Of a stretch of DNA of 42,661 bases, positions 151-42,306 are shown piece by piece. Location: assembly GCA_024698865.1 (NCBI GenBank), contig JAILQS010000057.1, forward strand, positions 1-42,661, given 5' to 3'. The notes under the pieces are model-generated. The model had not been told where the DNA came from. It was given only the letters and a program-made list of their open reading frames with translations, and did not search any database. The DNA is from Lachnospiraceae bacterium (GTDB taxonomy: Bacteria > Bacillota > Clostridia > Lachnospirales > Lachnospiraceae). Every line of letters starts with the position of its first letter. The first letter of the stretch is position 1. A program made the position numbers and the translations under genes.

Positions 151-3100
151 TTATTTGATTTTCTTTTTGGCTACTTTACTGTAAGCACCATAAAGTTTGG
201 TTTTACCTACTTTTACGAAAGCTCTTGCTTTTACGTAGTATGTAGTTTTCTTTGTCAGCTTCTTAACTGTTGTAGAAGTTGTTTTACCTTTAGAAATAAC
301 AACGGTTTTCTTTCCTTTTTTGAATTTCTTATCTTTTGCAAGAAGAATTTCATATCCGGAAATACCACTGAGTTTTTTCCATTTTACAGTGAGTGTCTTC
401 GTTTTCTTTGAGGAAACGGTTAATTTGCCCATCTGTTTTGGATTAACTGTAATGGTAACTGTTTTAGTAGCCTGGTTAAAGTTAGCTGTTGCTGCAGCAG
501 ATACTGTAATAACAGCTTTACCCGGTGCAATCACACGGATGTTACCTTTGGCATCCACAGTAGCTACTTTAGGGTTGTTGCTGTTGAATGAAAGTTTACC
601 ATCACCGTTGGTTTTAATACCAAGATTAAAGGTTTTTGCACCTGCTACTTTGGTGTAAGCGGCAGTTCCTGTTAAAACAGTTGCTTTCTTAACGCCAGGT
701 GTTACAGGTTCATCCGGGAATCCCGGTCTTGCCGTGAAGTTGCTGTCTTTAACTTCCAGTACAATTTCGTTGGATTCTGCGACAACAGATCCACCGCTGA
801 AACCTAACATCTTGATGTAATGTGTGCCTTTGGATAATCCGTTAATGGCAACTTTGTCTGCATTAAAGATTCCGCCACCCTTATATGGGTTTGTAAATAC
901 GTCGGTAAATTCTTTGGTGTATTTGCCGGATTTTTCTCCAACGAGGATTTTGTAATTCTTCGCAGCAGAAAGTTTGTAGTATTTAATCATTGCACCGCCA
1001 TAGAATTCAGAAGCCTCAATTTTCATTGGCTTTGGAGTCATAGGGGTGTTCAAAAGTTTCTTCTCTGCGTCGGTAAGATTTGCAGCTTTGGCAGAGTAAA
1101 CAGAATATGCTTTCTGATATCCTCTCAGACCGATTTTGCCTTTTTTGAAGGAGGAATCGGTAATGCTTTCTACCACAGTTCCGTCAATGAGGAATGCAAT
1201 TTTGTTACCCTGGCAGAGTACTTTTAATTTGTGTGTTGGTGTATTGGCAAATGTATAATTTGCTTCGGAAATTCCGGTCCAGTTATTGTCGGCTTTACCG
1301 ATTACGTAACCATCATTCTTTAATCCGAAATAGTAACCTTTATAAGAATCCGGGCCGCTTGCAATATTATCTGCTCTAAAGATAATACCTGCATTACCGC
1401 CACCATTGCCTAAAGCCATCTCGATTTCATAGGAATAATCGCTCCAGTTGGTATCTCCGGCAGAAGCTTTGATGTTGCTGGATTCTCCAAGATATAATTC
1501 ATTGTTATTAAACTGTGCAACGTTGTCACCAACTACAGTCCAATTAGAGGAACTTGCAAAGTTATCGCTAAAGTTTACAGTAACCTCTTCTGTCTGGCTG
1601 TTATCAGCAAATACAGCTAAGTCAGAAGCCTCAACATTTCGTACGGTGAGGTTATAAGCTGTAAAGGCTTCGTTGTATGAACGAAGTCCAACGGTACCGG
1701 TTGCATAGGAAGAATCCGTAAATTTATATGCAAATTCATCATCTACATAAACGGCATACTGATCGCCATAAGCTACAACTTTTAAGTTGTATTTAACCCC
1801 AGGATTAATGGTCCAAGGAATTTCTTCTACGGTACTCCAGCTTCCGTTTACTTTGCCGACAATAATACCGCTTCCAACGCTTCCAACTTTACCGATACCT
1901 ACAAAGTATCCGTTGTAGGCATCCGGACCATCGCCGTAGTTGCTCGTATGTAACATAATACCGCAGTTGTTGGTATCACATTTATCAACGGACAATCTTG
2001 CTTCTACCACGTAGTCAGACCAGTTTTCGGCAGCTGATGTGTTAAGAACTGCTTTTACGTTTGTATCTTTTTCGAAACGGATTTTGGTAAGCTTCTCTCC
2101 TGCCTCTTCGTTTGCCTGAATAGTAACGTTACCTTTAGTTCCGATAAGATCCCAATCCTGTTTCAAATAGTTTTCAGTGTTAAATCCGCTGTAAACCGCA
2201 TTTGCAGCGTTCGGATTTGGCTGTAAGCCTTCTTCCTGTTTTGGAGCAAATACGAATTCTTTACTTGTCTTAACTTCACCCATGATGAAAGCTTTTACAA
2301 CAGCATAATATGTTGTATCAGCATTAAGACCTTCTAAAGTAGCTGTGGAAGAACTGAATCCACGAACTTCTGTAGTGTAGTTTCCTGATTTGGTTCCATA
2401 TTCTACCCAGTAAGGAGTCTCCTGACTGTTTAAGTTGGTAAATAACTTAATAGTGCTTCCGTTACGTGATGTTGCACCTACGTTAATATCAGTAATTTTA
2501 CGATTAACGAGTTCAATTTCGATGCTTTCAACATCAACGTTTTCAAAACGAAGATTATTGTAAATATCGTTTGTAAATTTAAATCCACCGTTTAATCCGG
2601 AAAGAGATGCAAGATTGTTAAGTGTTGCAGTTCCACTGGTTAAATCGATGTCATTAATGGATTTGCCGTTAACCGTAACTTTTCCGTTACCGCTACCGGT
2701 TACTTTAAGGTTATAGTTGTTTGCAGCAGGAACTACGATGTTGTCAAATTCCTGATACTCTACTTCGTCGCCTGCATCGTTGTGACGTTTGATTTTATGA
2801 GAGTCTGCTTTTGTACGAACTACTTTGTCTGTAATAATGTTGCTGTTATCGGTATAAGCAACAGGAAAATGTGTAATCTTCAGACGTTCGCAACCATATG
2901 GAATCAATTCGATATCTTCTACTTTGGAAGCATCGTATTTAACGCCACTATATGGCTGTGGTCCGCAAAGGTTACCGTCCATCTGCCAGTCTTCTATTAA
3001 CTGTCCTTTTGCTTTGATTACAACAGGGGCATTATCAATTGAGAAAATGTTGTAATTTCTCGCTTCTTTTTCTGTACTGAAGTTTTCTCCTGTTTTGGCA

Positions 3101-4956
3101 TAAACCGCATCATTTTTCACAACAGTAAAGCCGTAATCTTTCTTTGTTTTATCAAGTACAAGAGCATAGTTCCATTTGCTCTTTGCATAAACCTCCTGAA
3201 TCGGAGTATTTACTTTTAACTCACGTACTTCATTATCGTGTGTTACTCTGTAGTCTTCTTCGATTTTTAAACTGTAGTATAATGGACCTTTCTTTACTGC
3301 TTTGGAATCATTATACCAGGTAGTAATTTCAAATTCGCTTGGGAATGTTACAACTACTTTATCTCCGTTTTTCCATTCTCTTGTAATCTTCTTGAATTCA
3401 CCGTTTACAATACCGGTTTCAGCCTGTCCGTTTACCGTGATGGTTGGAGTGGTTGTCCATTCCGGAATACGTAAACTTAATGGGAAGGATGCAGTTTCAC
3501 CTGTATAGGTAATTGTCATGCTGTCTTCAAACGGATAGTTGGTTTCTTCTGTGAAGCTGATTGTTTTGCCAGCGGAATTCTTGGTAGAAACCTGGTTTGG
3601 TCCGTATGTGATAACTGCAAGTCCGTCATCTTCTGAAGACATCCACATATTCTGTACGAATTTTGGCCATCCCATACCGTTATTTGCATAACAGCAGTCA
3701 AATCCGGAAGGAAGTGAGAATGCGGAACTGTCACCGTGGTCACAGTCGAATTCGTGGAATCCTTCGGTAGCTGCCACCTGATTCTGTAATGTGAAGTAAC
3801 AATGAGCGCTATAATCCTCTGAATAGCAGGAAGCTAATGAGTTATAAGCAATCATTTCCATATTGTCACCAATCCAGCCTTCGCCAAGTACACCCATAGT
3901 GATCTCGGAAGAAAGTAAACTTTCTACGACACCACAGGTCTCGGTACCGGTTGTAGATTTGTTGTACTCCGGTGCTTCGTCTGAGTTTGGAAGACTGTCA
4001 ATACGGCCATGATCCAGATTCCAGTTAAAGAATCCGTGTTCAAATGCAGCCTTAGAAATAATGTCTTTGTTTTTACGATAAATGAGGGATGGTGTTTTTA
4101 ATCCCTGGCTGGTATTAACTACGTGATAACGAACATTTTCTTCATTATAACGGGTTACCCATGGCTCTGTCTGAGAATATAATGTATCGCCAAGTTCGAT
4201 TAACCATGTGATTTGGGATTCTTTGTATCCATAACTGAGTAATTCATCGTACAACCAGTAAACGCTGTAGATGTTGTCTCCACCTCTGGCAGCGGCCCAG
4301 CTTGTTAAACGATTGCCAGGTAATGTGTTTCTCTGATAATTAAAATACTTGTACATAAAGTTAAGAATTTTTTTCTGTTTATCAGAAATACCTTCGATGT
4401 CATTAATGCTTGTAGTATCGCCATCAGCATTTACTACTGCTTTGGTGTTGTTAAGGCGGCCAAGTGCATTGTAATAATCAATAATTGCCATCAGCATAGG
4501 CATTCTTGGCCACCAGTCAGTATTGCTCAGTGGTCCATAAAAACCATCGCTACGCTGGCTGTTAATCGCTGCATCCATCCAGCTTTCGGCTTCCTGCATA
4601 AGACTTTCATCTTCTAATTCATATGCAAGCGCAACGAGACCACGAACAAAGTAAGGACCGTTCTCCCAACTCTCTCCGCTCGTACCGAGCCAGCCACTGG
4701 TTGCGGCGTTGTAATTGTTATACTTTTTCATTTCACCGGTAAGATACTTCGCCTGAAGCTCTAACTGGTTTTTTAACCAGCCGGTGGCTTTTACGGAACC
4801 TAAAGAAAGCGGTTTGTATACCACTTTTTCAAGTCTCGAATTGTCACCCACTGCGGCTTTGGATTTGTCTGTATTAGTCGGTATCATAAGTCCGGTTAAT
4901 ACAAGCACAAATACTAAAGAAATCGCAAGGATTCGTTGTAAAATGCTATTTTTCAT
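151..4956 (-). CDS. Secreted multidomain GH127-type beta-L-arabinofuranosidase
   Basis: A 1601-residue extracellular enzyme likely to release L-arabinofuranose from plant cell-wall glycans. Residues 1-35 form a signal peptide ending in SKAA. The catalytic (alpha/alpha)6 barrel plus beta-sandwiches cover roughly 45-800. Glu339-x-Cys341 and the pair Cys421-Cys422 match the Glu/three-Cys zinc site of Bifidobacterium HypBA1, where one Cys is the nucleophile; Glu327 or Glu330 may be the acid/base. Then come an Fn3 domain (about 820-905), two tandem LamG/concanavalin-like domains (about 920-1108 and 1127-1293), an Fn3-like segment (1305-1405), a Big2 domain (1422-1505) and a very Lys-rich Fn3 domain to the end. 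There is no LPXTG motif, so wall attachment, if any, is non-covalent. The start has GGAGG 8 bases upstream. A TTGACA lies at 5039-5044, but I see no well-spaced -10. The gene stands alone between two terminators. The class is secure; the exact substrate is inferred. Confidence 0.85.
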   Translation of the reverse strand: MKNSILQRILAISLVFVLVLTGLMIPTNTDKSKAAVGDNSRLEKVVYKPLSLGSVKATGWLKNQLELQAKYLTGEMKKYNNYNAATSGWLGTSGESWENGPYFVRGLVALAYELEDESLMQEAESWMDAAINSQRSDGFYGPLSNTDWWPRMPMLMAIIDYYNALGRLNNTKAVVNADGDTTSINDIEGISDKQKKILNFMYKYFNYQRNTLPGNRLTSWAAARGGDNIYSVYWLYDELLSYGYKESQITWLIELGDTLYSQTEPWVTRYNEENVRYHVVNTSQGLKTPSLIYRKNKDIISKAAFEHGFFNWNLDHGRIDSLPNSDEAPEYNKSTTGTETCGVVESLLSSEITMGVLGEGWIGDNMEMIAYNSLASCYSEDYSAHCYFTLQNQVAATEGFHEFDCDHGDSSAFSLPSGFDCCYANNGMGWPKFVQNMWMSSEDDGLAVITYGPNQVSTKNSAGKTISFTEETNYPFEDSMTITYTGETASFPLSLRIPEWTTTPTITVNGQAETGIVNGEFKKITREWKNGDKVVVTFPSEFEITTWYNDSKAVKKGPLYYSLKIEEDYRVTHDNEVRELKVNTPIQEVYAKSKWNYALVLDKTKKDYGFTVVKNDAVYAKTGENFSTEKEARNYNIFSIDNAPVVIKAKGQLIEDWQMDGNLCGPQPYSGVKYDASKVEDIELIPYGCERLKITHFPVAYTDNSNIITDKVVRTKADSHKIKRHNDAGDEVEYQEFDNIVVPAANNYNLKVTGSGNGKVTVNGKSINDIDLTSGTATLNNLASLSGLNGGFKFTNDIYNNLRFENVDVESIEIELVNRKITDINVGATSRNGSTIKLFTNLNSQETPYWVEYGTKSGNYTTEVRGFSSSTATLEGLNADTTYYAVVKAFIMGEVKTSKEFVFAPKQEEGLQPNPNAANAVYSGFNTENYLKQDWDLIGTKGNVTIQANEEAGEKLTKIRFEKDTNVKAVLNTSAAENWSDYVVEARLSVDKCDTNNCGIMLHTSNYGDGPDAYNGYFVGIGKVGSVGSGIIVGKVNGSWSTVEEIPWTINPGVKYNLKVVAYGDQYAVYVDDEFAYKFTDSSYATGTVGLRSYNEAFTAYNLTVRNVEASDLAVFADNSQTEEVTVNFSDNFASSSNWTVVGDNVAQFNNNELYLGESSNIKASAGDTNWSDYSYEIEMALGNGGGNAGIIFRADNIASGPDSYKGYYFGLKNDGYVIGKADNNWTGISEANYTFANTPTHKLKVLCQGNKIAFLIDGTVVESITDSSFKKGKIGLRGYQKAYSVYSAKAANLTDAEKKLLNTPMTPKPMKIEASEFYGGAMIKYYKLSAAKNYKILVGEKSGKYTKEFTDVFTNPYKGGGIFNADKVAINGLSKGTHYIKMLGFSGGSVVAESNEIVLEVKDSNFTARPGFPDEPVTPGVKKATVLTGTAAYTKVAGAKTFNLGIKTNGDGKLSFNSNNPKVATVDAKGNIRVIAPGKAVITVSAAATANFNQATKTVTITVNPKQMGKLTVSSKKTKTLTVKWKKLSGISGYEILLAKDKKFKKGKKTVVISKGKTTSTTVKKLTKKTTYYVKARAFVKVGKTKLYGAYSKVAKKKIK

Positions 4957-40969: not shown

Positions 40970-41806
40970 CTATTTTGCGCCTTCTACGCAGTTTTTCATT
41001 AACATGGCAATCGTCATAGGCCCTACGCCACCCGGTACCGGCGTAATCTTGCTTGTAATCGGTGCTACATCATCAAAGTCAACGTCGCCACAGAGTTTGT
41101 TATTTTCATTGCGGTGAATTCCTACATCAATAACAACCGCACCTTCTTTTACGTACTCTTTGGTGATGAATTTTGGTTTGCCGATAGCAACGACAAGAAT
41201 ATCCGCTCTTTTGGTCACTTCTTTTAAATCCTTTGTTCTGGAATGACAAACGGTCACGGTTCCATTTTCTCTAAGTAAAAGCAACGCCATAGGTTTGCCG
41301 ACAATATTGCTTCTTCCAACAACGACGCATTCTTTTCCTTCAATGTCCACATTCGAACGTTTTAATAATTCAATAATACCGGCAGGTGTACAGGAAACGT
41401 AACCTTTCTGACCGATACTTAATGCACCTACAGACTGAGGATGGAAGCCGTCTACATCTTTCTCAGGCGCAATCGCTTTGATTACGGCATCTTCGTCGAT
41501 GTGTTTCGGTAACGGAAGCTGTACGAGAATACCATTGATATCATCCTGCTTGTTTAACTTATCAATTAAGGAAAGCAATTCTTCTTGTGAAATATTTTCT
41601 TCAAGTTCATAGGAAACCGACTCAATACCGGTATATTCACAGGCTTTTTTCTTATTGCCAACGTAAACGGCAGAAGCCGGATCGTTTCCAACTAAAATAA
41701 CCGCAAGAGAAACCTTCTTACCTTGCGCGTTAAGCATTTTTACTTCTTCTTTTACTTCATTTTTAATGTCCATGGAAATGGTTTTTCCGTCAATTAATTC
41801 GTACAT
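40970..41806 (-). CDS. folD: Methylenetetrahydrofolate dehydrogenase/cyclohydrolase
   Basis: A bifunctional cytosolic enzyme interconverting 5,10-methylene-, methenyl- and 10-formyl-tetrahydrofolate. It has 278 residues. The catalytic lysine lies in [27 protein letters not shown], the NADP-binding GRSNIVGKP and the C-terminal [10 protein letters not shown] signatures are all present. The ATG has GGAGG 8 bases upstream. It heads the folD-rimO-pgsA-cinA unit from the promoter at 41881-41909. Confidence 0.97.
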
Positions 41807-41909: not shown

Positions 41910-41982
41910 GGTTTGTAGGTGCATTTTTACACGCCTTAAATAAAAAAGTAAATTCACATCTACGGGATTTTACGTTTAAAAG

Positions 41983-42138
41983 AGCTTCGCAGACTGCCAA
42001 ATACTTTTCTCGACAAAGCTCTCGCACGGTTTGGGTCCCCTAGGCTCACTAAGCTCTCACTACGCACTTTGTGCTTGTGAATCGCTAAGTGAACAGACCC
42101 AAAACGGTCTCGAAAAGCATTTGGCAGTCTGCGAGGCT
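41983..42138. repeat. 156-bp near-palindrome (long hairpin element)
   Basis: The outer arms 41983-42009 and 42112-42138 are complementary with two wobble-type exceptions, including an 11-base exact block (41990-42000 with 42121-42131). A 12-base one-sided loop (about 42014-42025) interrupts the stem. Pairing resumes between 42026-42037 and 42096-42108, then 42044-42054 and 42083-42094, then TCAC/GTGA, and ends in GCAC-TTT-GTGC (42064-42074). No ORF fits it. On the minus strand the outer arm is followed by CTCTTTTAAA, so it may terminate minus-strand transcription. It could also be a non-autonomous repeat or a structured RNA. Confidence 0.75.
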
Positions 42139-42247
42139 AATCTACACTAACTTCCATTACTACTTAAAAATCAAGAGAGAAACAACTGAAAACAAAATAT
42201 AAACATCAACTAGGCCGGTGGAATTTGTAGTTACCGACTAAAGAGAC

Positions 42248-42306
42248 GTTCCCGGTCATTCCCCATTCCAAAGAGTCGACCTTTTGGAATGAGAAATACC
42301 GGGAAC
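42248..42306. repeat. Two-stage inverted repeat
   Basis: GTTCCCGGT (42248-42256) pairs exactly with 42298-42306. Inside, CATTCCAAA (42264-42272) pairs exactly with 42283-42291. Unpaired internal loops separate the stems. Neither side has a good T-run. It lies 24 bases past the stop codon of the antitoxin-like remnant, so it may be a weak terminator or part of a repeat cluster. Confidence 0.65.

Follow-up and report, generated by a model that had tools for sequence, protein, structure and literature searches.

Among described bacterial palindromes, REPs with GTAG or CGTC feet are 20-40 bp long, and the stems of the CGTC families measure 8-9 bp (Di Nocera et al. 2013, PMC3733652). These REPs are reported from other phyla, and Clostridia are not mentioned in that paper. 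Associations of REPs with insertion sequences are described as well (PMC1525189).

The palindrome considered here lies in a window of 42,661 nucleotides, the whole stretch of DNA analysed, from a Lachnospiraceae bacterium. Its repeat unit of 150-290 bp is not a 20-40-bp hairpin with an unpaired GTAG or CGTC end; CGTC is found only as the 3′ foot of some copies in genomes G203 and G063 and is absent from the window copy. No published description of the hairpin was found in the literature searched, and exact-string searches gave incidental matches only. About one third of sampled Lachnospiraceae-type genomes carry it, yet it has no Rfam family. It is probably (at roughly 0.62) a dispersed, mobile, non-autonomous palindromic repeat with a conserved tip and a retained fold, and the window copy probably lies in the relic of an IS30-like element that carried it.

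Structure of the palindrome

The initial annotation described a 156-bp near-palindrome at 41983-42138, and folding confirms it. The outer arms at 41983-42014 and 42107-42138 pair with each other, and the inner hairpin nested between them ends in GCAC-TTT-GTGC. The minimum free energy is -78.3 kcal/mol (z -8.3) on the plus strand and -93.1 kcal/mol (z -9.8) on the minus strand, and none of 200 shuffles was as stable on either strand. The minus strand carries the CTTAGCGA tip. On this strand the family tip, CTTAGCGA-stem-loop-GAGCTTAG (42049-42089; motif search and covariation), pairs as CUUAGC/GCUUAG with one U.U mismatch, followed by tandem G.A mismatches. The tip lies within an inner core at 42028-42106 (CGTTTTGGGTCTGTTCACTTAGCGA...GAGCTTAGTGAGCCTAGGGGACCCAAACCG), and a small side hairpin, GC-GAGA-GC with a GNRA-type loop, occupies 42018-42025 (folding and alignment, helix 5); most relatives have GC-GAAA-GC at this place. 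The minus-strand ORF 40970-41806, read as folD and given for context only, lies downstream of the element.

The window has two other structures of this kind. A second hairpin at 42248-42306 (TTCCCGGT..ATTCCAAAG / CTTTTGGAAT..ACCGGGAA) lies about 110 bp off the palindrome and outside the repeat unit, and another palindrome, CAAGACTCGCGAGCGAGTCTTG, stands at the window start (1-52).

Copies in the source genome and in named records

In the source genome (G000, 2.54 Mb in 183 contigs), a second copy of a ~231-bp unit (window ~41933-42162) was found on contig C135 (locus L002), with 92% identity. This copy stands in front of rplS, its surroundings differ from those in the window, and the homology ends abruptly. 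A second copy in different surrounding sequence makes the palindrome a dispersed repeat. The repeat unit also exceeds the 156 bp first annotated, with homology from ~41933 to 42162 and a likely element from ~41938 to 42226. A 19-base core probe found the core in four named records, Lachnospiraceae bacterium YSB2008 (L117), SRR12081300_bin.117, RGIG8032, and RGIG8178 (the last three L118-L120).

The initial annotation had called for a search for further copies in the source genome and its relatives, and would have left a single copy, neither conserved nor transcribed, as an isolated palindrome. That outcome did not occur, and an isolated single palindrome is rejected because further copies exist. 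Its suggestion of a non-autonomous repeat family is supported by the C135 copy, by the shared cores of the four records, and by the many related genomes that carry the family. No match came from the phage, plasmid, and viral collections, and a phage- or plasmid-borne element is rejected for that reason. Rfam gave no match at the gathering score, and a permissive search of the window region returned a chance match only; a known RNA family is therefore rejected. Beside the C135 copy, a CRISPR-like array (L002:1-295, repeat GTTTTAGTACCTAGAAGAATTAAGTAATCGTAAAAC) directly adjoins a truncated IS30 remnant.

Constant core and covarying stems

Six sequences were aligned: the window, C135, YSB2008, SRR12081300_bin.117, RGIG8032, and RGIG8178. 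The inner core of the window, together with the small GNRA-type hairpin, is nearly constant across all six, and it is kept in L002 and L117-L120 despite changing outer arms. At the three independent loci L118-L120 the outer stem has unrelated sequence and has kept its pairing. RNAalifold predicts 52 pairs for the six sequences, 14 of them with compensatory changes, and the covariation score is 0.245, against 0.094 for shuffled and at most 0.088 for slid alignments.

The wobble positions first annotated, A/C at 42003/42118 and C/A at 42045/42093, are both present as described. At 42045/42093, 5 of 6 relatives have U-G; 42003/42118 is G-U, A-U, or U-A among relatives and is paired in every case. 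A hand tally of the pair table for the minus-strand structure in the six relatives gives ~23 G-U cells versus 2 A-C cells. The covariation and the minus-strand excess of G-U over A-C are evidence that the fold of the single strand is constrained, in line with one of the two possibilities first suggested, selection on RNA structure.

Strand-specific G-U tolerance, covariation, and a constant core with varying arms also speak for a functional structured RNA, in which the tip and the GNRA-type side hairpin would form a non-coding RNA or a 5′ or 3′ UTR element, and the stems would be a freely drifting scaffold. The missing Rfam match counts against it, and further evidence on both sides comes from the distribution of the tip and from the arms. 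Taken together, this explanation is given a small but real chance.

A probable IS30-like carrier of the window copy

In YSB2008 (L117) the palindrome lies between the left end (TAAATTCCAC, ~1955) and an ORF at 2228-3565. This ORF matches NCBIfam transpos_IS30 (NF033563) with 102.5 bits at a cut-off of 80, and also matches Pfam HTH_38; several GTGGAATTTA repeats lie 3′ of it. The C135 copy retains N- and C-terminal remnants of an L117-type transposase. In the window, 41938-42157 resembles L117 1945-2167 with 83% identity and 42165-42226 resembles L117 3774-3835 with 76% over 62 bp. Both flanking matches beat 1000/1000 dinucleotide shuffles, and the transposase gene is absent from the window copy.

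Degenerate IS30-type end repeats are found on both sides in the window and align to the L117 ends. On the plus strand these are GTAAATTC at 41948-41955, a putative remnant of the left terminal or subterminal repeat (TAAATTCCAC in L117 and L142), and GTGGAATTT at 42218-42226, a putative remnant of the first right-end repeat (GTGGAATTTA). Collinearity with L117 thus extends to either flank of the absent gene. The window copy is therefore most plausibly what an internal deletion has left of an IS30-like element, a relic at about 41938-42226 (plus strand) that would comprise the left end, the palindrome, and a 3′ non-coding remnant. Judged by sequence, the window and C135 copies are decayed IS30-family copies. 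The right end in the window falls short of L117's true end (~4010), and no clear target duplication is seen by eye at the window copy.

The IS30-like relatives L142, L141, and L255 have the same kind of end repeats as L117. The left end of L142 is ~108 bp from its transposase gene, versus 273 bp in L117, and L142 has no tip motif. None of 30 IS30 relatives has the tip motif within 450 bp up- or downstream of the gene. The shorter left part of L142 and the 30 relatives without the tip indicate that a single IS lineage acquired the hairpin as an extra part, and the palindrome as a general IS30-like feature is rejected, with the tip upstream of the transposase in none of these relatives. The same count weighs against the main reading, since none of the 30 carries the tip upstream of its gene as a candidate autonomous partner. 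The missing phage, plasmid, and viral copies, the lack of a clear target duplication in the window, and the limited right-hand similarity (62 bp, 76%) also weigh against it.

The elements L117, L142, L141, and L255 have several GTGGAATTTA copies at the right end and one inverted at the left. L142 has a ~14-bp direct repeat, CTCTTCACATGAAT, on both flanks. Besides its upstream palindrome, L117 has a very stable structure 3′ of the transposase (3629-3722), with a best fold of about -80 kcal/mol.

Distribution of the tip

The exact tip pattern is present in 12 relatives out of 61, all from the same family. A sample of 299 genomes from this family has it in 100, where the reversed-pattern control gave very few matches, and it occurs in 9 of 398 genomes across the phylum, including another family (f128). 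One sampled Lachnospiraceae-type genome has 35 exact tips. The hairpin appears as a repeat scattered through gut and rumen Lachnospiraceae. Among 103 distinct copies, the stem positions flanking the fixed 8-mers pair far above shuffled levels, and G-T exceeds A-C on the tip strand. In a genus of f128 (L227-L229; G565, G679, and G540), 2-21 tip copies are close to the window's version (CTTAGCGATTGGCAAG...), and other species of the genus have none. Genome G282 (L107, L108, L111, L112) has alternating tip hairpins arrayed in tandem at intervals of ~91 bp, and the GGTATAATA between them is a -10-like sequence.

By a crude ORF criterion, 111 of 115 copies with context lie outside long ORFs. Between co-oriented genes the tip strand is sense in 50 cases versus antisense in 25, and the C135 and L117 copies have a terminator-like hairpin with a T-run after the palindrome; both observations favour a structured RNA. 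Different copies have unrelated genes as neighbours, the tip is missing from many genera, and the window copy is itself read as a relic, all of which count against it. The intergenic position and the sense bias would likewise suit a hairpin that is not itself mobile and serves the host as a transcription terminator or, in the manner of REPs, by stabilising mRNA; roles of REPs are known (PMC3733652). The palindrome is far longer than terminators: an intrinsic terminator has a short GC stem with a U-run directly after it, whereas this stem exceeds 30 bp, its foot has no U-run, and a T-run directly after the stem is inconsistent among copies. The mobile-element context and the differing presence and absence between congeners make a fixed host hairpin very improbable.

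A MITE sub-family

In genome G211 the hairpin lies inside a 190-250-bp element with terminal repeats (TIR) AGGTAATTGCGAAACT and no ORF. Direct flanking repeats of ~9-11 bp were read by eye at several copies (ATTTATTTTTT, TTAGTTTACC, and GAGTATATAGC/GAGTTATAGC). One copy lies in the fabG-fabF gap, and 14 congeners have this gap without the element, which makes them empty sites. The G211 element, with the family tip inside it, is a MITE, and in this sub-family the TIRs, target duplications, and empty sites bear out the suggestion of a non-autonomous repeat. The tip is as in the window copy and the ends are different; in place of such TIRs the window copy has only a degenerate ~9-bp end repeat. 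That the MITE evidence comes from another genome, with a shared tip and different ends, counts against the main reading. Of the two MITE copies at L129 and L131 of G211 (249 vs 194 bp), one has a second tip hairpin nested within the other's hairpin, as though one hairpin had been inserted into another.

The main reading of a mobile repeat comprises the following steps. The family is defined by its tip, a short stem with a U.U mismatch, a tandem G.A cap, and a variable stem-loop, nested in longer stems. The window copy would have travelled as the cargo of an IS30-family-like insertion sequence, in its non-coding left end. The family in general may spread as mobile DNA that is not autonomous and depends on various transposases acting in trans, with a probable preference for intergenic sites. 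The hairpin may be selected as a single-strand fold, in read-through RNA or in lagging-strand or other ssDNA, and would then act as a transcript or replication structure, not as coding sequence. The tip may plausibly function as RNA or as ssDNA.

Copy-specific arms

G203 and G773 are close relatives with ~96% DNA identity. Their copies share one ~110-bp core, mostly 91-99% identical. The 24 nt outside this core are unrelated between paralogues, with local scores mostly of 6-18; 2000 random 24-mers score 8.9 on average, with a 95th percentile of 12 and a maximum of 22. Each arm matches its own partner arm with scores of 18-34. The arms of orthologues are identical or nearly so: L172/L336 score 48/48 on both sides, and L364/L356 score 48 and 40. 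In G063, 17-25 of 26 arm positions match within a copy, and matches between copies are near random. Random arms in paralogues and identical arms in orthologues imply that the arms are fixed as a copy arises, or that old cores have been homogenised. Slow compensatory drift as the sole source of arm differences is disfavoured by the same contrast, and this weighs against a structured RNA with drifting stems, since the paralogue arms are unrelated despite near-identical cores.

These arms also raise the question of how a palindrome is born. According to one proposal, 'one core, any arms', the core is re-framed at each insertion by a new locus-specific inverted repeat of ~15-30 bp, and transposition or repair writes the inverted duplication; this is held to be unlikely. 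As a rival to the main reading, ~15-30 bp of flank would be copied in inverted orientation on insertion by snap-back or template-switch synthesis, so that each copy obtains its own fresh locus-specific inverted repeat. The self-matched arms of G203, G773, and G063, the unrelated arms around the window's core in L118-L120, and the degenerate tandem repeats resembling the arm in the right flanks of some copies are in line with this mechanism. Many G203 and G063 copies have fixed outer ends, with ACAG ~51 nt before the tip and CGTC ~62 nt after it, and ends at a constant distance from the tip argue that the arms are part of the element itself. The same pattern would also result if recombination made the cores evolve in concert. 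At L329:9609-9750 in G773, the shared core has its left arm from one G203 locus and its right arm from a different one, either by recombination at the core or as an assembly chimera. For the only single-arm site found, which lies in G773, deletion at a GACGCT direct repeat is the better explanation. A 274-bp insertion specific to G203 exceeds the hairpin in size and shows no clear duplication, and neither site gave clean proof of an inverted target duplication. Arms copied from the flank on insertion are regarded as quite improbable. The contrast between paralogue and orthologue arms would allow a direct test of palindrome birth, by inverted duplication at insertion versus gene conversion of the core.

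Comparison with known systems

Structured RNAs in Rfam have covarying stems like those of the present hairpin, and none of the families matches. The likeness to IS30-family insertion sequences lies in the transposase and ends of L117 and in the apparently decayed window and C135 copies; the difference is the added palindrome, absent upstream of the transposase in the 30 IS30-like relatives. The G211 elements resemble MITEs in their TIRs, ~10-11-bp direct repeats, lack of an ORF, and empty sites. The family as a whole differs from MITEs in that the same tip occurs in different host elements and the window copy has no visible TSD.

REP/BIME and CGTC- or GTAG-tagged palindromes are similar in being dispersed intergenic palindromes with conserved parts, a sense bias, and sometimes an unpaired CGTC-like foot. 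In contrast, the repeat described here is 100-250 bp long and nested, and has a GA-mismatch tip and copy-specific arms. Such a layered build is unusual for a bacterial palindrome, with a tip that is fixed and arms that are free in sequence yet paired, being set as a copy arises unless the cores were homogenised later.
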